From an archaeon (lineage in GTDB: Archaea > EX4484-52 > WAPT01): DNA of 8,274 bases. The stretch's first letter is position 1; every line of letters begins with the position of its first letter. Position numbers and translations under genes: made by a program. Positions 1 to 8,274 of the stretch are shown one piece after another. The stretch lies in assembly GCA_029258795.1 (NCBI GenBank), contig JAPDKB010000010.1, forward strand, positions 1 to 8,274, read 5' to 3'. The notes under the pieces are model-generated. The model had not been told where the DNA came from, made no database searches, and saw only the letters and a list, made by a program, of their open reading frames with translations.

Positions 1-144
1 TATCTTTCCTGGAAGGCGAGAGAATACGATTTTCATTCAAACTTCATTGCACTTGCTGCACAGGTAAATGAAAATATGCCATATCATGTTGTTTCCCGCC
101 TCTTTGAAATCTCCCATCTGCACAATACCTCAATCCTGCGTTAA
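1..144 (+). pseudogene. nucleotide-sugar dehydrogenase, internal fragment truncated by IS
   Basis: Frame 1 is open from the first base to a TAA at 142-144. It encodes a stretch beginning YLSWKAREYDFHSNFIALAA and continuing NENMPYHVV. This is the characteristic segment just after the catalytic region of UDP-glucose/UDP-N-acetylhexosamine (GDP-mannose) dehydrogenases, which oxidise a sugar nucleotide to the uronate for capsule or O-antigen synthesis. In full-length relatives this segment lies roughly two thirds along a protein of about 430 residues, followed by the C-terminal UDP-binding domain. Here the family match fades after VVSRLFE, and the last codons and the stop come from the insertion-sequence end that begins at 128. 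The C-terminal domain is absent and does not resume on the other side of the IS, so the product should be inactive. The 5' part lies outside the window. The family call rests on remembered motifs, not an alignment. Confidence 0.75.
128..144 (+). repeat. IS left terminal inverted repeat
   Basis: CCTCAATCCTGCGTTAA pairs with the complement of 1754-1770 with a single mismatch, at base 140. The TAA that ends the truncated dehydrogenase frame is part of this repeat. Confidence 0.8.
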
Positions 145-224
145 GGGGTGGTAAAATTATGCAAAGGCTGTTGTAGACGGGTTTTTGGATTTTGGGCATT
201 TCCCATATTTTTGCAAAATAGGAC

Positions 225-254
225 TTGAAAAAGCCTCCTTTCCCCTGCTATAAT
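225..254 (+). promoter_or_regulatory. transposase promoter
   Basis: A -35 box TTGAAA (225-230) is followed after 18 bp by a perfect -10 box TATAAT (249-254). Transcription would start near 260-262, a few bases before the Shine-Dalgarno site. The -10 box lies in the loop of the inverted repeat annotated at 233-274. Confidence 0.6.
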
Positions 255-274
255 AAGCAAAAAGGAAAGGAGGC
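233..274 (+). promoter_or_regulatory. inverted repeat that can sequester the transposase ribosome binding site
   Basis: gcctcctttcc (233-243) is the exact complement of ggaaaggaggc (264-274), an 11-bp stem with a 20-base loop. A second small stem, TGCT/AGCA (246-249 with 256-259), lies inside it. The right arm contains the Shine-Dalgarno AAAGGAGG (266-273) of the transposase. RNA started upstream of the element would contain both arms and could hide the binding site. RNA from the element's own promoter would lack the left arm. Such protection from read-through is known for IS10 and IS50; its operation here is inferred. Confidence 0.6.
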
Positions 275-277
275 AAG

Positions 278-1564
278 ATGCTAAGTAGTAATAAGATAAA
301 CAGAAAAATCCCATTTGTCAAGGTAGAAAAAGAGAAAGGTATGATTACTTCCCATGGTGGTCTACATTTGGTTGGGAAGTTTGCTGAAAAGGTAGGGCTT
401 TTTGATGCTCTTGATAACCATATAGAGGTGAAGGAGAGGGATTCGGGGTATTCTCCATCTGAGGCGTTGATGAGTCTGGTCTATGTATTTCTTTCGGGTG
501 GAGATGCACTGGATGATATAGAGGTGATAAGGAGAGACCATGCCTTAAGGCTTCTGCTGGGCTATGAGAGGTTTCCTCATCCTACAACTCTTGGGAGACA
601 TCTGAGGAGATATTCACTTGGGCATATAAGGCAGGTGGAGAAGGCTATAAAGGAAGTAAGGGATAATGTATTCAGGGATAGATTTTTCAAGAAGATAACC
701 CTTGATTTTGATTCATCGGTATGGAGGGGTTATGGGGATAAAGATGGGTTAAGGTATTCCTACAAGGGGGTAAAGGGTTATAATCCGCTTTTCTGTTTTG
801 TTGGTGAGACCGAAGAGTGTTTGCATATGAGATTAAGGTCTGGCAATGCATATTCTTCTGATGGGGCAGTGAGTTTTTTAAGGGAGGTTTTAGGGAAGGT
901 AAAGGCTGGGGTCATTCGTGTTCGTGCTGATAGTGCGTTTTACCGGAAGGATTTTGTTGGTGAATGTGAGAGAAAGGGTATTCTTTTTACAATAACAGCA
1001 GATCTTACCGCTTCTCTTTTAGAGAGGATAAAATCTCTTCCTTCTGATGGATGGGAAAAGGTGGGTGATGATGAGATTGCGGAGTTATATTACAGACCTA
1101 CAGGGTGGGAGAAAGAATACAGGTGTATAGTAAAGAGGGTAAAGAGGAAAAGAGGGCAGCAGGCAGACCTTTTTGAGGGGAACTACAGGTATTATGTGGT
1201 GATAACCAATATGTTTAGGGGCAGTGCTTTTCTTATTCTTTCTTCACATTTTAAGAGGTGCACAATGGAGAAGATGGTTGGTGAATTAAAGAGTGGTTTA
1301 GGGCTTGAGCCTTTGCCTCTGCGGGAGTTTTTTGCGAATTGGATGTTTTTACTTATGGGAATACTCGCATTTAATATCCTTATATGGCTCAGGCTATTTT
1401 ATCTTCCGTCCATTTATAGGAAGCATATGACGAAGAGAATGAGGTATCATCTGATAAATATTCCCGGAAGGGTGGTTCAGAACAGCAAGGGGTTGAGCCT
1501 TTACCTTATGGAGGAGCATGCGGGGATATTTCAACAGATTTATCACATTATAACGGATACTTAG
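278..1564 (+). CDS. IS1380-family DDE transposase
   Basis: This 428-residue protein catalyses cut-and-paste movement of the element. An RNase H-like catalytic core is supported by LDFDSS (Asp143/Asp145) and VRADSAF (Asp218). The C-terminal stretch from His324 to Lys338 fits the Y(2)R(3)E(6)K signature of IS4-related transposases: Arg327, the putative catalytic Glu331 and Lys338 are correctly spaced, but the leading Tyr is His324. GYNPL and RSGNAYSSDGA around residues 168-195 are typical of IS1380 members. The ATG at 278 is preceded by AAAGGAGG with a 4-base gap. The frame is complete and has the normal family length, so the enzyme may be active. It reads towards the propeller array but has its own promoter. 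Confidence 0.88.
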   Translation: MLSSNKINRKIPFVKVEKEKGMITSHGGLHLVGKFAEKVGLFDALDNHIEVKERDSGYSPSEALMSLVYVFLSGGDALDDIEVIRRDHALRLLLGYERFPHPTTLGRHLRRYSLGHIRQVEKAIKEVRDNVFRDRFFKKITLDFDSSVWRGYGDKDGLRYSYKGVKGYNPLFCFVGETEECLHMRLRSGNAYSSDGAVSFLREVLGKVKAGVIRVRADSAFYRKDFVGECERKGILFTITADLTASLLERIKSLPSDGWEKVGDDEIAELYYRPTGWEKEYRCIVKRVKRKRGQQADLFEGNYRYYVVITNMFRGSAFLILSSHFKRCTMEKMVGELKSGLGLEPLPLREFFANWMFLLMGILAFNILIWLRLFYLPSIYRKHMTKRMRYHLINIPGRVVQNSKGLSLYLMEEHAGIFQQIYHIITDT

Positions 1565-1753
1565 AAAAATAATGGTTTAAAAGACAGGGAGATTCTGTTT
1601 TGCGAAAAGGACCGAAGCCCTGATATGGAAGTGTTTTTATTTGACCGATTTCCCCCTCTTATCCTGCCATTGTAAAGACCTTCTTTTTACCATTCTCCTC
1701 CCTATATTCCTCTTTACCCTCATCTTTAACCTCCTCAACCCCAGAATGAATTT

Positions 1754-1770
1754 TTAATGCAGGATTGAGG
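1754..1770 (-). repeat. IS right terminal inverted repeat
   Basis: The complement reads CCTCAATCCTGCATTAA and matches the left end over 16 of 17 bases. It marks the boundary with cassette 1 of the propeller array. Confidence 0.8.
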
Positions 1771-2049
1771 GAATACTTTTCTTCTGTTCCTGAAATAGAC
1801 AACGGTTCTTTTCCTTTTGTTGTCATAGGTTCTTTTTCATTTACTTTTTCTCTTTCATCATCTTCTTTTGTTACTTTATCCTTTTACGATGTTTGTGGAA
1901 GGGAGGTATATCACAGGGATCTGGGTTATTTTTCAAGGGGCACCCATCATTGCGAGGTTTCACTTTCATTGCCTTCAGGGGTATATTTCCCCATCCTGAA
2001 GGCAGGCACCCAGGTTTTCAGGGGGAAGATTATCTTTATTAACCCTTAA
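1771..2049 (+). pseudogene. cassette 1: 3' remnant of propeller/sorting-tail protein gene
   Basis: Only the last 90 or so codons survive. The frame enters from the IS end, where a TTG at 1765 could serve as a start but has no Shine-Dalgarno site. It encodes a hydrophobic/serine-rich strand region, then FYDVCGREV, a charged turn, LPSGVYF and a final KIIFINP. This pattern (YDxxGRxV about 25 residues before PSGVYF, near the C-terminus) is that of the immunoglobulin-like type A sorting domain of type IX secretion substrates, although the terminal NP is not the usual Lys-rich ending. The propeller part and signal peptide are missing, presumably lost with the IS-associated rearrangement. It most resembles the tail of cassette 2. 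The stop is followed 12 bases later by the ATG of a peptidase-like fragment. Confidence 0.7.
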
Positions 2050-2061
2050 AAGGGGGTGGAG

Positions 2062-2373
2062 ATGCTTGTTTTATCTCTTTTGCTTTTATTTGGGCAGTCA
2101 CCCAACCATCATGCGGTGTTGATTACGGGTGATACACCTGAGGGAGGGAGATTGAAGGCTCAGTTGTTGAAGGGGTCTGAGGAAGAAGAGTTCACTGAGG
2201 AGGAGTTATCTCCCGGTGCATTTGTTCCTGTGGGAATGAGTGTCAATGCAGGACTATGGAATGCTGGCTCTGAGGAGAAGGGAGATGGGGTTTACGATGA
2301 ATTCTGGAACGATACCTATCTCATGTGGGAGTTGCTGTATAAGAATGGATGGCCTGATGAGAATGGAATTTAA
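2062..2373 (+). CDS. cassette 1: truncated C13/caspase-fold peptidase-like secreted protein
   Basis: The 103-residue product starts with a short signal peptide (MLVLSLLLLFGQ). Then come PNHHAVLITGD, an acidic/Lys-rich insert, and FWNDTYLMWELLYKNGWPDEN, ending GI-stop. A first beta strand ending in G(D), then a helix starting FWND and the motif NGWxxxxI, resembles the beginning of legumain-like (C13) or other caspase-fold peptidases. The catalytic His-Gly and Cys, which lie further on in the fold, are absent, so no peptidase activity is expected. The ATG at 2062 is preferred over the in-frame GTG at 2056 because AGGGGG lies 5 bases upstream of it and the same layout recurs in the other cassettes. 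It sits 12 bases after the upstream stop, which suggests translational coupling. The next promoter starts 10 bases after its stop. The family assignment is tentative. Confidence 0.6.
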   Translation: MLVLSLLLLFGQSPNHHAVLITGDTPEGGRLKAQLLKGSEEEEFTEEELSPGAFVPVGMSVNAGLWNAGSEEKGDGVYDEFWNDTYLMWELLYKNGWPDENGI

Positions 2374-2383
2374 AAAATTGTGC

Positions 2384-2412
2384 TTGACTTTGGGAGATTT
2401 TTTGAATAAGAT
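2384..2412 (+). promoter_or_regulatory. promoter of cassette 2
   Basis: TTGACT (2384-2389), a 17-bp spacer and TAAGAT (2407-2412). The start codon follows 23 bases after the -10 box. The same arrangement precedes the propeller genes of cassettes 3 and 4, which supports it as a real conserved promoter. Confidence 0.7.
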
Positions 2413-2435
2413 TGAGATATCAATAGGGGGCGAGG

Positions 2436-3885
2436 ATGAATGGAGATAAGAATTTTGAAGGAATGAGAATTGCAGGTAAAGGGGCATGGCTCCTGTGGTT
2501 TCCGTTTATTCTTTTTGCCTGGTCTCCACCGGTGAACATATCGAATACTGAGAGTTTAAGCACCTATCCTTCCATGTGCATAGACAGGAGGGGCTGGTTG
2601 CATGTGGTATGGGAGGAGAAGGTTGATGGTTCTATTGGGGTTCATGGGATAAATGATATTTACTATGTTTGCAGGGTGGGTTCGGTATGGACATTGCCTT
2701 TGAATGTTTCCAATGATTCATTTGCCAGTTGGAGGCCTGATGTTGCTGTTGATACCTTAAACAGGGTTCATGTGGTCTGGGGCAATTATGAGACGGGGAA
2801 GATAATGTGGACTATGTGTGAGGATGGGGTGTGGACAACCCCTGTTTCAATATCTGATTCAGTTCCTTATGCCTGTGTTGCTCCAAGGATTGCGGTAAAT
2901 CCTCTGGACAATGCAGTTCATTGTGTCTGGCATGATTTGGGCTCTGATACGAAAGACGCGGATGTATGGCATACCTATTTTGATGGGGAGAAGTGGAGTA
3001 TTCCTGAGAATGTGACGCATGACCCTTCTCGTTCTATCTGGCCTGATGTTGCGGTTGATTCTCTTGGAAGGATTCATTTGGTCTGGGAGGATTGTTTGAG
3101 TTCTCAACATGATGGAGCCCATATTTATTATACCAGGTATGAGAATGGTGTATGGCTTCCTTTTGAAGACATATCTCCCAATTGTGAGGGTACTGTTGCC
3201 CCCAGGATAGCGATAGACAGGGATAATAATCCTCATGTGGTGTGGGAGGAGAGGGCTGGAGGTTACCTGGTTTATTACACCTACTTTGATGGAACGAGAT
3301 GGGTAAATCCGGTGCTGGTGGATGGGAATATTTCTCGTGTTCCAGATATAGCAATAGATAAAGAAAATAGAGCCCATATTGTCTGGGGGCATGGAAGTGA
3401 AAATGAAACCTTTAATGTTTTTCATGTGGTATACAAGGATACTGTTCAGGAATTTCTCCCTGAAAAATGCCTCCAATAGTGATTCTATTTCTAATGGTCC
3501 CTGTATTGTTGTTAAAGAGTATGTGCATCTTATCTGGGGTGAGAATTTAGAAGAAGGCACTTACTTTCCCAATATTGAAATTTACTATTCCAGAAGGGAA
3601 CTTTCCGGGATAGGGAAAAAAGATGATAAAAAACCATCTTTTTCTTTCCCTTCCATTGCTGTTTGCAAACTCTCCTTTACCTTTTCTCTTTCTGAGCCTT
3701 CATTTGTGAGGGTTTCATTTTATGATTTGGCAGGGAGGAAGGTGAAGGAGGTTTCTTTGGGTTTTAAGGGAAGGGGTACCCATCGATGCAGTGTATCACT
3801 TGATTTGCCTTCAGGAGTATATTTCCCCATCCTGAGGGCGGGCACCCAGGTTTTCAGGGGGAAGATCATCTTCATTAACCCTTAA
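2436..3885 (+). pseudogene. cassette 2: secreted beta-propeller protein with sorting-type tail, frameshifted
   Basis: The first frame runs 2436-3477 and stops at TAG 3477-3479. The homologous sequence continues in the +1 frame through NASNSDSISNG to TAA 3883-3885. Removing one A from the five-A run near 3462-3466 would restore a protein of about 482 residues. The N-terminus has a signal peptide (charged start, then LLWFPFILFA). It is followed by repeats of about 48 residues with the pattern P-x-IAVD-x-x-x-RxHVVW, then IYY, then G-x-W-x-x-P-x-NIS, giving about seven blades. The tail has FYDLAGRKV and LPSGVYF and ends in FINP. The start at 2436 is weakly primed by GGGGG 5 bases upstream but aligns with the better-primed start of cassette 4. 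The gene may be broken, may be rescued by slippage, or may contain a sequencing error. The propeller resembles BNR/sialidase-like repeats, but no sialidase catalytic residues are recognised. Confidence 0.72.
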
Positions 3886-3897
3886 AAGGGGGTGGAG

Positions 3898-4206
3898 ATG
3901 CTTGTTTTATCTCTTTTCCTTTTATTTGGGCAGTCACCCAACCATCATGCGGTGTTGATTTGCGGGGATACACCTGAGGGGGCTAAAGCGAAGGCTGAGG
4001 CGTTGCTTAAGGAGGAAGATGCTGAGTTTGCTGAGGAGTTATCTCCCGGTGCATTTGTTCCTGTGGGAATGAGTGTCAATGCAGGACTATGGAATGCTGG
4101 TTCTGAGGAGAAGGGAGATGGGGTTTACGATGACTTCTGGAACGATACCTATCTCATGTGGGAGTTGCTGTATAAGAATGGATGGCCTGATGAGAATGGA
4201 ATTTAA
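3898..4206 (+). CDS. cassette 2: truncated C13/caspase-fold peptidase-like secreted protein
   Basis: This 102-residue homologue of the 2062-2373 product has the signal peptide MLVLSLFLLFGQ, then PNHHAVLICGD, a charged insert of different sequence (AKAKAEALLKEEDAEF) and the same LSPGAFVPVGMSVNAG segment. It then has FWNDTYLMWELLYKNGWPDEN and ends GI-stop at the same place. The C-terminal catalytic part is missing, as in cassette 1. The ATG at 3898 has AGGGGG upstream and lies 12 bases after the stop of the propeller gene. The insert differs in sequence and length by whole codons only, and the frame is kept open. This suggests, but does not prove, that the shortened product is made. Confidence 0.6.
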   Translation: MLVLSLFLLFGQSPNHHAVLICGDTPEGAKAKAEALLKEEDAEFAEELSPGAFVPVGMSVNAGLWNAGSEEKGDGVYDDFWNDTYLMWELLYKNGWPDENGI

Positions 4207-4216
4207 AAAATTGTGC

Positions 4217-4245
4217 TTGACTTTGGGAGATTTTTTGAATAAAAT
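4217..4245 (+). promoter_or_regulatory. promoter of cassette 3
   Basis: TTGACT (4217-4222), 17-bp spacer, TAAAAT (4240-4245). It is one base closer to consensus than the cassette 2 promoter within an otherwise near-identical intergenic region, so it may be somewhat stronger. Confidence 0.7.
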
Positions 4246-4268
4246 TGAGATATCAATAGGGGGCGAGG

Positions 4269-5621
4269 ATGAATGGAGATAAGAATTTTGAAGGAATGAG
4301 AATTGCAGGTAAAGGGGCATGGCTCCTATGGTTTCCGTTTATTCTTTTTGCCTGGTCTCCACCGGTGAACATATCGAATACTGAGAGTTTAAGCACTTAT
4401 CCTTCCATGTGCATAGACAGGAGGGGCTGGTTGCATGTGGTATGGGAGGAGAGAGAGGGAAGACATGAGGTTTATTATACTTTCTTTACGGGTGATACCT
4501 GGGGCATTCCTGTAAATATTTCCAATGACTCAAATTATTCTGTGCGTCCCGATGTTGCTGTGGATACTTTAAACAGGGTTCATGTAGTCTGGTGTGATTG
4601 GCCTCCTGGGAGGATATTGTGGTGTTATATGGAGGGGGGAATATGGTCTTCTCCTGTCTGTATTTCTGAGAGTATTCAGGCAGATAATGAGGGTCCGGAG
4701 TTAGTGGTGAATCCTTTAGACAATACTGTTCATTGTGTATGGCATGGGATTAGTGGTACTGAGTCTGTGATATGGTATTCTTTTTGGGATGGGGAGTCTT
4801 GGTCTATTCCTGAGAATATTAGTTCTCTGGATGGATATGGAGCCTGGGCTGACATAGCGGTGGATTCTCTTGGGAGCTTGCATGTTGTCTGGATGGACTA
4901 TGGAACTGAGGACATTTTTTATTCCTGCCGGGATGGGACTACATGGAGTTCACCTGTTAATATTTCCAATCTTTCAGGTCAATCCTGTGCCCCCAGGATA
5001 GCGATAGACAGGGATAATAATCCTCATGTGGTGTGGGAGGAAAGAGAAAATGGCTATCAGGTGTATTATTCTTATTTTAATGGTAATGGATGGGTAACGC
5101 CTATCTGGGTAGATTCTTTAACTGCTGCCACTCCTGATATTTCGGTGAGAAAGGATACTGCTTACATAGTTTATTCTCAAGACTATGATGTTTTTTATAC
5201 TGTATATAGAGGTTCTTCTTGTGTTCTTTTTCCTATGTGTATTTGTAGTACAGGTGGAGCGCTGTGTACCCGTATAGAGGCTAATGCTGGCTTACTTCAT
5301 GTTGTATGGCAAGATGCATCTGTGGATTCCAGTGTACCTATAAAGAACATAGAGATTTTTTACATCTCAGGTAAAGCTGAGGGCTTTGCCTCTCAGAGTT
5401 TTCTTTCTTCGGGTTCTTTTGTAGTGATTAAATATCTGTATCTTCCATTTTCAGGGTGGGACAGTGTAACCATTTATGACATTGCGGGCAGGAAGGTGAT
5501 GGAGATAGAGAGGGAGGTAATGAGGGGGATAGAGATGAAGATGCCCAGCGGGGTGTATTTTCTGGAAGTGAGGAGAGGGAATGTACGATTTTGGTACAGA
5601 CTTATCCTTTTAAACCCTTAA
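4269..5621 (+). CDS. cassette 3: secreted seven-bladed beta-propeller protein with sorting-type tail
   Basis: An intact 450-residue protein predicted to be exported. Residues 1-28 form the signal peptide (basic start, hydrophobic LLWFPFILFA, probable cleavage near Ala28). Residues 30-372 contain about seven repeats of 45-50 residues. Most carry D-x-x-x-x-x-HVVW, an aromatic (F/V/I)YY or WYS strand, then G-x-x-W-x-x-P and I-S, as expected for a seven-bladed propeller. Blades 6 and 7 are the most divergent. The tail has IYDIAGRKV (402-410), MPSGVYF (425-431) and ends LILLNP, resembling a type A sorting domain of type IX secretion. The start at 4269 is chosen by homology with cassette 4. The first 60 codons are nearly identical to those of cassette 2, while the blades differ. 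Its stop is 13 bases before the peptidase-like fragment. A binding or adhesive role is plausible; the ligand is unknown. Confidence 0.78.
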   Translation: MNGDKNFEGMRIAGKGAWLLWFPFILFAWSPPVNISNTESLSTYPSMCIDRRGWLHVVWEEREGRHEVYYTFFTGDTWGIPVNISNDSNYSVRPDVAVDTLNRVHVVWCDWPPGRILWCYMEGGIWSSPVCISESIQADNEGPELVVNPLDNTVHCVWHGISGTESVIWYSFWDGESWSIPENISSLDGYGAWADIAVDSLGSLHVVWMDYGTEDIFYSCRDGTTWSSPVNISNLSGQSCAPRIAIDRDNNPHVVWEERENGYQVYYSYFNGNGWVTPIWVDSLTAATPDISVRKDTAYIVYSQDYDVFYTVYRGSSCVLFPMCICSTGGALCTRIEANAGLLHVVWQDASVDSSVPIKNIEIFYISGKAEGFASQSFLSSGSFVVIKYLYLPFSGWDSVTIYDIAGRKVMEIEREVMRGIEMKMPSGVYFLEVRRGNVRFWYRLILLNP

Positions 5622-5634
5622 CAGGAGGTGCAGT

Positions 5635-5859
5635 ATGATTCTTGAGGTTTTGGAGTTTTTACTTGTTGTTTCTCAGGTTCCCAATCATAATGCTGTGGTG
5701 GTATCGGGTAAGGTTGCTACGCAGGATTACAACGAATTCTGGAACGACTGTTTCCTGATGTGGGAGTTGTTCTATCAAAATGGCTGGAGTAACGACCACA
5801 TCCATGTGATATACGGAGACGGTACAGTAACTTCCGCAGGGTCAGGCATTAACAGTTAA
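5635..5859 (+). CDS. cassette 3: peptidase-like fragment truncated by RAYT element
   Basis: The 74-residue product starts with a weak signal-like segment (ILEVLEFLLVVSQ), then PNHNAVVVSGK. Next come FWNDCFLMWELFYQNGW and the strand HIHVIYGDG, so it reaches slightly further than the cassette 1 and 2 versions. It lacks their acidic insert. Residues AGSGINS and the stop (5857-5859) are encoded by the end of the inserted element starting at 5837. The rest of a C13-like domain, including the catalytic His and Cys, is absent. The ATG has a strong AGGAGGTG site 5 bases upstream and follows the propeller stop by 13 bases. The fold assignment rests on motif resemblance; catalytic activity is not expected. 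Confidence 0.6.
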   Translation: MILEVLEFLLVVSQVPNHNAVVVSGKVATQDYNEFWNDCFLMWELFYQNGWSNDHIHVIYGDGTVTSAGSGINS

Positions 5860-5884
5860 CAATTTTTATCAATTTATCAAATCC
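5668..5884 (+). repeat. direct repeat, copy 1 (peptidase fragment plus element end)
   Basis: Matches 8058-8274 (offset 2390) with four substitutions by eye, all synonymous in the peptidase-like frame. The last 123 bases appear identical, across the junction into the RAYT element. Confidence 0.85.
5837..5865 (+). repeat. left 29-bp inverted repeat of RAYT element
   Basis: Exact complement of 6489-6517. In the reading direction of the upstream gene it supplies the last seven codons and the stop of the peptidase-like fragment. On the other strand it contains the stop of the RAYT frame. Confidence 0.85.
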
Positions 5885-6449
5885 TTCCAGGATTTTCTTT
5901 TTTCCTTCTATTCTTGCATATGTCAATTTTGCGCCCGCAGGAAAGGTTTCCTTCCAGGTTGAAGAGTCCTTCGCGTAAGAGAACAACCCCATGTTCTAAT
6001 CGCATCTTTTTAAATTTTATAACATCCTCAATCTCTCCCATATTTTTCCCGAAAGAATCTATTTACAAGCTCCGGGGTGATTTTAACCTCCATTCGCTTC
6101 TTTCTTCTCTCCTTTTCAAGCATATTTAATACTTTCTTCATAAACGCCTCATCACCTATATAATCCTGGACCTTTTTCACCTCAGGCATGGAAACCATCC
6201 TTGCACGAACAGGATTGAGATGATGAACATACCTGGTGAGTAATCTCTGCATAAACCTGGATAAAGGCTCATGAGCCGTCTCAATCAGTAAATGGACATA
6301 ATTAATAAACCTGTATCTGCGGGTGAGCTCCTTCAACATCTTTAAAAATTCCTACCTGTCCTCCCAGAATATCACCCGCCCCCCTCATTTCCCTTGAAAA
6401 TAACATGATGCAGAGCACCAGGATAATCTACACGCAAAGGACGTGGCAT
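5849..6449 (-). pseudogene. decayed REP-associated tyrosine transposase (RAYT)
   Basis: On the minus strand an ATG at 6449 opens with MPRPLRVDYPGALHHV and continues FKGNE, the standard RAYT N-terminus. The gene then carries many lesions. The six-C run at 6379-6384 (six G on the coding strand) marks a frameshift. The continuing frame has an in-frame TAG (6352-6354) between FWEDR and EFLKMLKEL. The HUH region reads NYVHLLIE, with the first His of the expected NHVHLL motif changed to Tyr and the preceding strand shortened. A large deletion near 6240 joins SRFMQRLL to RYVHHLNPVRARM, removing about 50 residues. Further shifts follow KYGRD. Family-like sequence resumes as YARIEGKKK and ends with a TAA at 5849-5851 inside the inverted repeat. 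A 103-codon open piece (6028-6339) survives but lacks the catalytic parts. It cannot encode an active enzyme. Confidence 0.75.
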
Positions 6450-6488
6450 GATAAGAGTTTAAAGAAAAATCAGGAGAAATTTTCAAGC

Positions 6489-6517
6489 AAATTGTTAACT
6501 GTTAATGCCTGACCCTG
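6489..6517 (-). repeat. right 29-bp inverted repeat of RAYT element
   Basis: Exact complement of 5837-5865. Just after it begins a pair of 10-base direct repeats, gaccctgggt and gaccctaggt (6511-6530), the first of which overlaps the end of the element. Confidence 0.85.
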
Positions 6518-6570
6518 GGTGACCCTAGGTGGTAGATGCCTGATGAGAATATACTTAGGAAAAACGAATC

Positions 6571-6598
6571 TTGACATAGAAAATTTTTATGATAGAAT
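6571..6598 (+). promoter_or_regulatory. promoter of cassette 4
   Basis: A perfect -35 box TTGACA (6571-6576), a 16-bp spacer and TAGAAT (6593-6598). It lies about 20 bases after a gatgagaat sequence, just as in cassettes 2 and 3, so the intergenic region is homologous though diverged. The promoter overlaps the ATG at 6589, which argues against that codon as the start. Confidence 0.7.
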
Positions 6599-6621
6599 CA
6601 AATTACCAATTGGAGGTTGAG

Positions 6622-8010
6622 ATGGTTAAGGGTAAAGATTTAAAAGTAATGAAAGAATTTAGAGGCAAAGGAGTTATTTTCCTTGTATCTTTATTTATTC
6701 TCTGTGGCTGGAGCACACCGATAAATATATCGAATACGGATAGTACCAGTTATATTCCTTCTGCGTGTTTAGATTTTTCAGGGAGGTTACATGTGGTTTG
6801 GGAGGAGAGGACACCTCTGGGAGATTTATTGAATGACATATATTATACCTGTCAGGTTGGTTCGGTATGGACTATACCTGTTAATGTTTCCAATGATTCA
6901 TTTGCAAGTTGGAGACCTGATGTTGCTGTTGATACCTTAAACAGGGTTCATGTGGTCTGGGGCAATTATGAGACGGGAAAGATAATGTGGACAATGTGTG
7001 AGGATGGGGTATGGACTACACCTGTTTCAATATCTGATTCTGTTCCTTATGCCTGTGTTGCTCCTGAGATTGCGGTAAATCCTCTGGACAATGCAGTTCA
7101 TTGTGTCTGGCATGATTTGGGTTCTGCTACTACTGATGCGGAAATATGGCATACATATTTTGATGGGGAAACATGGAGTGTTCCTGAGAATGTAACGAAT
7201 GATACCTATGATTCTGGCTGGCCTGATATAGCGATAGATTCCTTAGGAAGGATACATCTTGTATGGATGGACTATGGGACCTATGACATTTTTTATTCTT
7301 GCTGGAATGGGACTACATGGACATCACCTGTTAATATTTCCAATCTTTCAGGTCAATCCTGTGCCCCCAGGATAGCCATAGACAGGGATAATAATCCTCA
7401 TGTGGTGTGGGAGGAGAGAATAGACAGAGGCGGTATTTATTATATTTATTTTAATGGAGTGAACTGGGAAACGCCAACTTTGATAGATACTGCTATTTCA
7501 GGGGAGATAGTTACCTCTCAGCCTGATATAAGTATAGATAGATTTAATAAAGCACATATAGTATGGAGACGCCAAGACAATGAAGAAGATAACATTTATT
7601 ATGCTTTATATTCTGGTTCTATAAATGAAACTGCTCTTATTGGTATTACGGCTATTTCTGCTGCTTCTGCTACTCCTCGGATATTGACGGACAGTTTAAA
7701 AATACATGTAATATGTGAAGATTATACTTCAGGTAAAGGAGATATATTCTATCTTACGGAGCTTTTATTAAGTAGCGAAACACATAAAGAATGTTTGGAG
7801 TACCCATCCATGTATTTTAGAGTTTTTATACTTAAGAAAATATCACGGGCCAGATTTCAAATATATGATATCGTGGGAAGAAAAGTAAGAGAAGGGATAA
7901 TAAAGGAAAATGAGCAAATCCGGATATCTTTCCCTTCTGGAGTGTATTTTTTGAGACTGAAGGTTGGGGATAAGGTATTCTGGCATAAGTTTATTCTTTT
8001 AAATCCTTAA
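6622..8010 (+). CDS. cassette 4: secreted beta-propeller protein with sorting-type tail, mosaic
   Basis: An intact protein of 462 residues. The ATG at 6622 is chosen because GGAGG (6612-6616) lies 5 bases upstream. The earlier in-frame ATG at 6589 lies between the promoter boxes. The N-terminus has a basic stretch and a hydrophobic FLVSLFIL segment (signal peptide), then about seven propeller repeats with D-x-x-x-x-x-HVVW and G-x-x-W-x-x-P motifs, as in cassettes 2 and 3. The tail has YDIVGRKV (415-422) and FPSGVYF, ending FILLNP. Bases 6883-7121 are about 95% identical to cassette 2, while 7265-7415 are about 93% identical to cassette 3, making the gene a mosaic. The last third (7440-7850) is AT-richer and unlike either. 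The 14-base gap to the next start suggests an operon with the peptidase-like fragment. Its function beyond export and probable binding is unknown. Confidence 0.78.
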   Translation: MVKGKDLKVMKEFRGKGVIFLVSLFILCGWSTPINISNTDSTSYIPSACLDFSGRLHVVWEERTPLGDLLNDIYYTCQVGSVWTIPVNVSNDSFASWRPDVAVDTLNRVHVVWGNYETGKIMWTMCEDGVWTTPVSISDSVPYACVAPEIAVNPLDNAVHCVWHDLGSATTDAEIWHTYFDGETWSVPENVTNDTYDSGWPDIAIDSLGRIHLVWMDYGTYDIFYSCWNGTTWTSPVNISNLSGQSCAPRIAIDRDNNPHVVWEERIDRGGIYYIYFNGVNWETPTLIDTAISGEIVTSQPDISIDRFNKAHIVWRRQDNEEDNIYYALYSGSINETALIGITAISAASATPRILTDSLKIHVICEDYTSGKGDIFYLTELLLSSETHKECLEYPSMYFRVFILKKISRARFQIYDIVGRKVREGIIKENEQIRISFPSGVYFLRLKVGDKVFWHKFILLNP

Positions 8011-8024
8011 CAAGGGGGTGAGGT

Positions 8025-8249
8025 ATGGTTTTTATGTGTTTGTTTCCTTTGCTGGCGGTTTCTCAGGTCCCCAATCATAATGCTGTGGTGGTATCGGGTA
8101 AGGTTGCTACGCAGGATTACAATGAGTTCTGGAACGACTGTTTCCTCATGTGGGAGTTGTTCTATCAAAATGGCTGGAGTAACGACCACATCCATGTGAT
8201 ATACGGAGACGGTACAGTAACTTCCGCAGGGTCAGGCATTAACAGTTAA
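8025..8249 (+). CDS. cassette 4: peptidase-like fragment truncated by second RAYT element copy
   Basis: Seventy-four residues. The signal-like start differs from cassette 3 (MVFMCLFPLLAVSQ). From VSQ onward the product is identical in amino acids: PNHNAVVVSGK, FWNDCFLMWELFYQNGW, HIHVIYGDG, then AGSGINS and the stop supplied by the element. The ATG at 8025 has AAGGGGGTGAGG upstream and follows the propeller stop by 14 bases. The only differences from cassette 3 in the shared part are four synonymous changes. No catalytic dyad is present, so peptidase activity is not expected. Confidence 0.6.
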   Translation: MVFMCLFPLLAVSQVPNHNAVVVSGKVATQDYNEFWNDCFLMWELFYQNGWSNDHIHVIYGDGTVTSAGSGINS

Positions 8250-8274
8250 CAATTTTTATCAATTTATCAAATCC
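8058..8274 (+). repeat. direct repeat, copy 2 (peptidase fragment plus element end)
   Basis: Second copy of 5668-5884. The window ends while the two copies are still identical, so the true end of this repeat is not visible. Confidence 0.85.
8227..8274. mobile_element. start of a second RAYT-type element, cut by the window end
   Basis: Forty-eight bases identical to 5837-5884, including the complete 29-bp terminal repeat. They lie at the same position within the peptidase-like gene. This shows that the insertion and the cassette around it were copied together. Whether the rest of the element is present cannot be seen. Confidence 0.65.

Follow-up and report, generated by a model that had tools for sequence, protein, structure and literature searches.

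A tandem array of lectin-like propeller genes and truncated C13 peptidase genes, probably a degenerating form of a conserved surface protein pair

The stretch analysed here (the window, positions 1-8274) is one complete 8274-bp contig (contig C13) of a MAG that comprises 1.17 Mb in 23 contigs. From position 1771 on it carries tandem two-gene cassettes, in which a beta-propeller gene with a sorting-type tail is followed by a short ORF with a signal peptide and a start like that of a C13 peptidase (Table 1). The propeller stop and the start of the short ORF are separated by 12-15 bases in all four units, with a good ribosome site. At its left end (1-127) the contig retains part of a nucleotide-sugar dehydrogenase gene (TIGR03026, E 0.0013) that is interrupted by an IS1380 element, and the right end, at 8274, falls within the second copy of another inserted element.

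Table 1. Features of the window, with positions counted from its first letter
Feature	Position	Strand	Evidence or remarks
IS1380-family element	128-1771	+	transposase 278-1564; ends CCTCAATCCTG.../...CAGGATTGAGGG
Unit 1 propeller remnant, T9SS-type sorting tail only	1776-2049	+	weak Por_Secre_tail match; TIGR04183 19.5 bits
Unit 1 fragment, type A, 103 codons, end GWPDENGI*	2062-2373	+	similarity to C13 proteins
Promoter-like site before unit 2	2384-2412	+	9/12 consensus match
Unit 2 propeller, frameshifted near 3450-3479	2436-3885	+	tail in frame of ORF 3379-3885
Unit 2 fragment, type A	3898-4206	+	similarity to C13 proteins
Promoter-like site before unit 3	4217-4245	+	10/12 consensus match
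Unit 3 propeller, intact, 450 aa, sorting tail	4269-5621	+	TIGR04183 22.7-23.3 bits
Unit 3 fragment, type B, truncated by inserted element	5635-5859	+	similarity to C13 proteins
Inserted element, RAYT-like decayed transposase gene	5837-6517	-	MPRPLRVDYPGALHHV..., ORF 6028-6339
Promoter-like site before unit 4	6571-6598	+	11/12 consensus match
Unit 4 propeller, intact, 462 aa, seven blades and tail domain predicted	6622-8010	+	TIGR04183 36.7 bits; AlphaFold2
Unit 4 fragment, type B, truncated by second copy of the element	8025-8249	+	similarity to C13 proteins
Second copy of inserted element, start	8227-8274		contig stops within

The propeller genes are intact in two of the four units (3 and 4). 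Unit 1 retains only the last ~90 codons, without blades or promoter, because the IS1380 element sits in front of it, and the frameshift in unit 2 places its tail in another frame. The original prediction of four units with one shared layout thus holds for the tandem repetition of propeller and short ORF but not for units 1 and 2 in full. Sorting-type tails had also been predicted, and TIGR04183 (cut-off 23 bits) indeed matches the propellers: unit 4 scores above the cut-off, as expected of a putative type IX secretion cargo, unit 3 lies at it, and units 1 and 2 (21.1 bits in the latter) fall below. The AlphaFold2 model of the unit 4 protein, built from 12 sequences (pLDDT 77.8), displays seven blades and a tail domain, and its top Foldseek matches are the PLL lectins of Photorhabdus. 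The protein is accordingly predicted to be a seven-bladed, PLL-lectin-like propeller; the NCBIfam model beta_propeller_lectin (NF052348) matches with 36.1 bits, far under its curated cut-off of 200.

All four short ORFs align with the N-terminal part of full C13 proteins from other genomes. Those of units 1 and 2 (type A) both stop at ...GWPDEN and run into the promoter of the next unit, whereas the type B ORFs (units 3 and 4) extend further, to YGDGTVTSA, before being interrupted by the inserted element; the two types are about half identical. None of the four reaches the regions of the catalytic His (WTFDHG) or Cys (MQQCxSGGF), and working C13 peptidases in the window are ruled out, since no catalytic residue is present. 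The predicted C13/caspase-fold beginning of the short ORFs was upheld by the homology to full C13 proteins and by the legumain fold of a relative (see below), although none of these ORFs is a peptidase. The type A pair differs with dN 0.098 and dS 0.131 (dN/dS about 0.75), which indicates little constraint; in the type B pair dN is 0.076 and dS 0.199, so that some constraint or a recent shared origin is possible.

The transposase of the IS1380 element, which is present as a single copy in the MAG, scores 320.8 bits against NF033539 (cut-off 180) and belongs to that family. A putative 4-bp target duplication (AATA at 124-127 and 1772-1775), which could be due to chance, would mean that the dehydrogenase flank and the propeller flank were already joined before the element arrived. 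The element in unit 3, which the original prediction does not mention, is bounded by perfect inverted repeats of 29 bp (5837-5865 and 6489-6517). Its ORF gave no match in a profile search, and the name RAYT therefore reflects motif recognition only. A 28-bp copy of its inverted-repeat end, 96% identical and partly palindromic, occurs alone on another contig of the same MAG (G000:C11:585-612, L038); it may be REP-like or a chance match and, if real, would argue that the window belongs to the MAG.

Self-BLAST confirmed the predicted long blocks shared at the junctions of the units, with 93% identity between 1935-2619 and 3771-4452 and 91.6% between 5602-5884 and 7991-8274. The same ...DEN junction lies 5' of units 2, 3 and 4; the junction before unit 4, GATGAGAAT, resembles the GWPDEN end of units 1 and 2. 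The GWPDEN ends can be understood as the trace left by a tandem duplication in which one of the breakpoints fell within the peptidase gene. Promoters for the individual units had been proposed as well, and candidate sites do lie just upstream of units 2-4, but unit 1 has none, and the total of 19 sites matching the consensus is close to the 15.2 (sd 3.3) found in shuffled sequences, so that no clear excess is seen.

Between the units, stretches that are 88-99% identical are interspersed with stretches in which dS is about 1. Informative sites are strongly clustered in a permutation test, with 250 like neighbours against at most 161 in shuffles and a longest run of 48 against at most 14. The units are thus mosaics formed by recombination or conversion among them. 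Such a signal, together with a promoter-like site for each of units 2-4, is what would be expected if recombination between tandem units generated variants of a surface binding protein, as the original prediction proposed. Mosaicism is, however, expected in any tandem paralogues, and no recombinase, invertible segment or silent donor that would point to a dedicated variation mechanism was seen at the locus. Two of the four units are broken, dN is mostly below dS in the divergent parts, and among the relatives only one other small tandem arrangement (L044) was found, the others having one or few dispersed copies. The role in variant generation is therefore weakly supported and is considered unlikely, although it is the best of the alternatives to a decaying array.

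The contig is likely to be mis-binned, and lateral transfer is possible. All 44 core segments of equal size correlate better with the MAG core in tetranucleotide Z values (minimum 0.536) than the contig does (0.52), but in plain 4-mer distance the contig (0.269) falls within the range of these segments (maximum 0.405); composition alone is for this reason not decisive. The only type IX tails in the MAG are those of this contig. They are absent from both genomes of the same genus and present in only five other genomes of the phylum of the MAG. In that phylum the C13 fragments have no other match, so that it yielded no close relative of the contig. Two further small contigs of the MAG, C10 (L129) and C12 (L131), have GC contents of 29.7% and 27.7%, respectively, compared with about 44% in the large contigs, and the MAG seems to contain several foreign small contigs. 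The contig ends in a repeat, and two WOR-3 contigs likewise break inside a C13 gene; together with the apparent mis-binning this could suggest that short-read assembly joined repeats wrongly and that the C13 genes are complete, or the units fewer, in the actual genome. Mis-binning, however, leaves the locus itself unchanged, the units are too diverged (patches with dS about 1) to be copies of a single one, the post-DEN junction recurs in diverged sequence, and comparable broken C13 genes are found in other assemblies. An assembly artefact is thus regarded as improbable, slightly more so than a variant-generating locus.

Loci with C13 genes were collected by using the fragments as queries against the genome collection, which yielded 15 loci, and by searches of 147 genomes of the WOR-3 phylum, which added more; their neighbours were identified by profile scanning of the surroundings. 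In 19 loci the C13 gene has a propeller of the window's family as its neighbour; the two genes share a strand in every case (19/19), and the propeller comes first in 15, the order being reversed in four relatives. The 19 loci are related by descent and do not represent 19 independent events, and the propeller identities, which go down to 20-35%, indicate that the linkage is old. The pair occurs in WOR-3/Stahlbacteria, in bacterium BMS3Abin03 (L043; Ignavibacteria-like by our own assignment) and in Bacteroidales (L044-L047, L049, L051). In the WOR-3 phylum 12 of the 16 C13 genes have a propeller neighbour; the other four (G156, G078, G129 and G061:C94) match weakly, and one of these lies on a contig of 3.7 kb. 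No propeller neighbour was found within the flanking DNA examined in a Bipolaricaulota MAG, a Bacillota MAG, Pseudobacteroides and two archaea (L050, L052-L055). The best relative of the window is WOR-3 RS_13_48, with 46-50% identity over the propeller; in the WOR-3 loci L041 and L042 the propeller, 46-50% identical to that of the window, is directly followed by a C13 gene. A suspected break in the propeller of G128:C162 was rejected, the gene being a single open frame of 476 aa. Relatives in which the genes are unrelated and share no order, which would speak against the cassette as predicted, were looked for, and conserved pairing was found instead. The pair is conserved across several bacterial groups that use type IX secretion.

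Both partners carry type IX tails in these relatives, and the complete C13 proteins also contain LVIVD, Kelch/TolB-like or PD40-like repeats. Against PF01650 (cut-off 22.8 bits) two of them exceed the cut-off (L043, 31.1; L071, 24.6), and the other full-length relatives approach it but stay below. The AlphaFold2 model of the C13 domain of L043 (pLDDT 75.0) matches legumain in Foldseek with E 6.8e-10, and PIG-K of the GPI transamidase appears at rank 9. By profile (L043, L071) and predicted fold the full-length relatives of the window fragments are assigned to family C13. Searches of PDB sequences returned nothing useful, and a plasmid search returned no match. In L070 (760-3765, minus strand) and L071 (5105-8119, minus strand) an LVIVD-repeat propeller is inserted in the C13 domain, so that its N-terminal and Cys-containing parts lie at least about 300 residues apart within one protein. 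In the paralogous intact pairs of G061 and G205 both genes are under purifying selection.

C13 genes that are broken or reduced to the N-terminal part were found elsewhere too, namely in G199, G172:C8, G062/L048, L047 and the first copy in L044, the last being a small array of C13, propeller and C13 genes. In G172 an intact pair on C6 is found beside the broken gene on C8, and in G199 remnants of the downstream C13 protein persist after its stop. Single cases are weak evidence, since an apparent frameshift in a MAG may stem from a sequencing error. The catalytic Cys and His are missing from some C13 domains of Bacteroidales (QAPHSGG, SNGG); the proteins in L044 (2521-4761), L046 (7902-10832), L047 and L049 (1134-1883), which have lost these residues and kept the propeller neighbour, are judged from their motifs to be probable pseudopeptidases. 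Peptidase activity can therefore not be the whole function, and the loss of Cys and His together with the recurrent decay suggests that the propeller may be under stronger constraint or that the C13 part may be a binding domain. In L051 a propeller gene of 90 codons (12303-12572) has its start fused to its tail, the middle being deleted; this further decayed copy of the cassette lies ~1.5 kb ahead of another gene, which contains a C13-like segment. Functional small secreted proteins encoded by the short ORFs (a binding domain, inhibitor or decoy from the C13 N-terminus) would account for the start, signal-like N-terminus and well-placed ribosome site in 4/4, the recurrence of N-terminal-only versions in G199 and G172:C8 and the dN and dS of the type B pair, but are very improbable in view of two different and accidental-looking end points (a duplication junction and an inserted element), the type A dN/dS, the C13 remnants downstream of the stop in G199 and the poor prospect that half a caspase-type domain would fold alone.

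The fragment ORFs are most likely remnants, and functional products in the window are probably limited to the propellers of units 3 and 4. The locus looks like an expanded, recombining and partly decayed array of propeller-peptidase cassettes; it is read as decayed because every peptidase gene here is cut short although the pairing is conserved elsewhere. The best reading, which we hold to be reasonably probable, is that a conserved surface propeller-peptidase pair is present here as a degenerating array of paralogues. The ancestral cassette would have encoded a secreted seven-bladed lectin-like propeller followed by a legumain-type (C13) cysteine peptidase, likewise secreted and with additional C-terminal domains; both would have had type IX export tails. 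In the window the cassette would have been multiplied in tandem, and one duplication breakpoint within the peptidase gene would have given the type A fragments; recombination would have mixed in a second cassette lineage, whose peptidase carried the RAYT-like insertion, giving the type B fragments; and the IS1380 insertion and the frameshift would have come later. As a whole this course of events is favoured with some reserve. The adjacency, common strand, tails and folds of the pair suggest that both products are co-expressed and act jointly at the cell surface, where the propeller may bind or gate a glycan or protein substrate for the peptidase.

The maintenance of the pair across distant bacterial groups, with the same export tag on both products, predicts a joint surface function for which no description was found. 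Searches of the available literature collection returned no paper on type IX secretion with C13 and propeller, on WOR-3 with type IX secretion, or on legumain with Bacteroidetes and T9SS, and a looser search returned only known T9SS work and unrelated papers. Whether the two products, one a legumain-type peptidase and the other a lectin-like propeller, assemble into a complex at the surface is one question that this raises; another is why the peptidase half is so often broken or catalytically dead. The window itself holds the more modest lesson of a tandem paralogue array in decay.

Several known systems resemble parts of the pair. The PLL-type seven-bladed lectins and BNR propellers are the best fold matches of the unit 4 model; the window propeller differs in scoring under the NF052348 cut-off and in carrying a type IX tail, and its lectin role is predicted from the fold. 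Legumain and family C13 (PF01650) are matched or approached by the relatives in profile scores, legumain fold and His and Cys motifs; the relatives differ in having a type IX tail and, within the domain or following it, repeats of the LVIVD, Kelch/TolB-like or other kinds, and the window ORFs differ in holding only the first part of the domain, with no catalytic residue. PorU-PorZ likewise combines a caspase-type cysteine peptidase with a beta-propeller protein, both type IX-tailed and at the cell surface, but PorU belongs to family C25 and PorZ has two seven-bladed propellers, whereas the window pair consists of C13 and a single propeller encoded by adjacent genes. Membership in PorU was rejected, as the NF033707 match is confined to the tail (positions ~990-1080 of 1095) and no C25 domain match was obtained, and so was membership in PorZ, as one seven-bladed propeller is predicted and NF052228 matches only the tail of the C13 relatives. 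In the GPI transamidase, PIG-K (C13) works with PIG-T, which was predicted to be a propeller and to cover its active site (PMC7522609). A C13 protease with a propeller-type partner is common to both cases, and PIG-K is among the top fold matches of the L043 model; PIG-K/PIG-T is a eukaryotic ER membrane complex, and the window pair is likened to it by plan and C13 fold only. By analogy, the pair might serve, as a second system beside PorU-PorZ, to anchor type IX cargo at the surface (as a transpeptidase) or to mature it, in the manner of the GPI transamidase, whose C13 core works with a partner; the dead Bacteroidales versions would then be binding scaffolds. To this idea we give a small chance.
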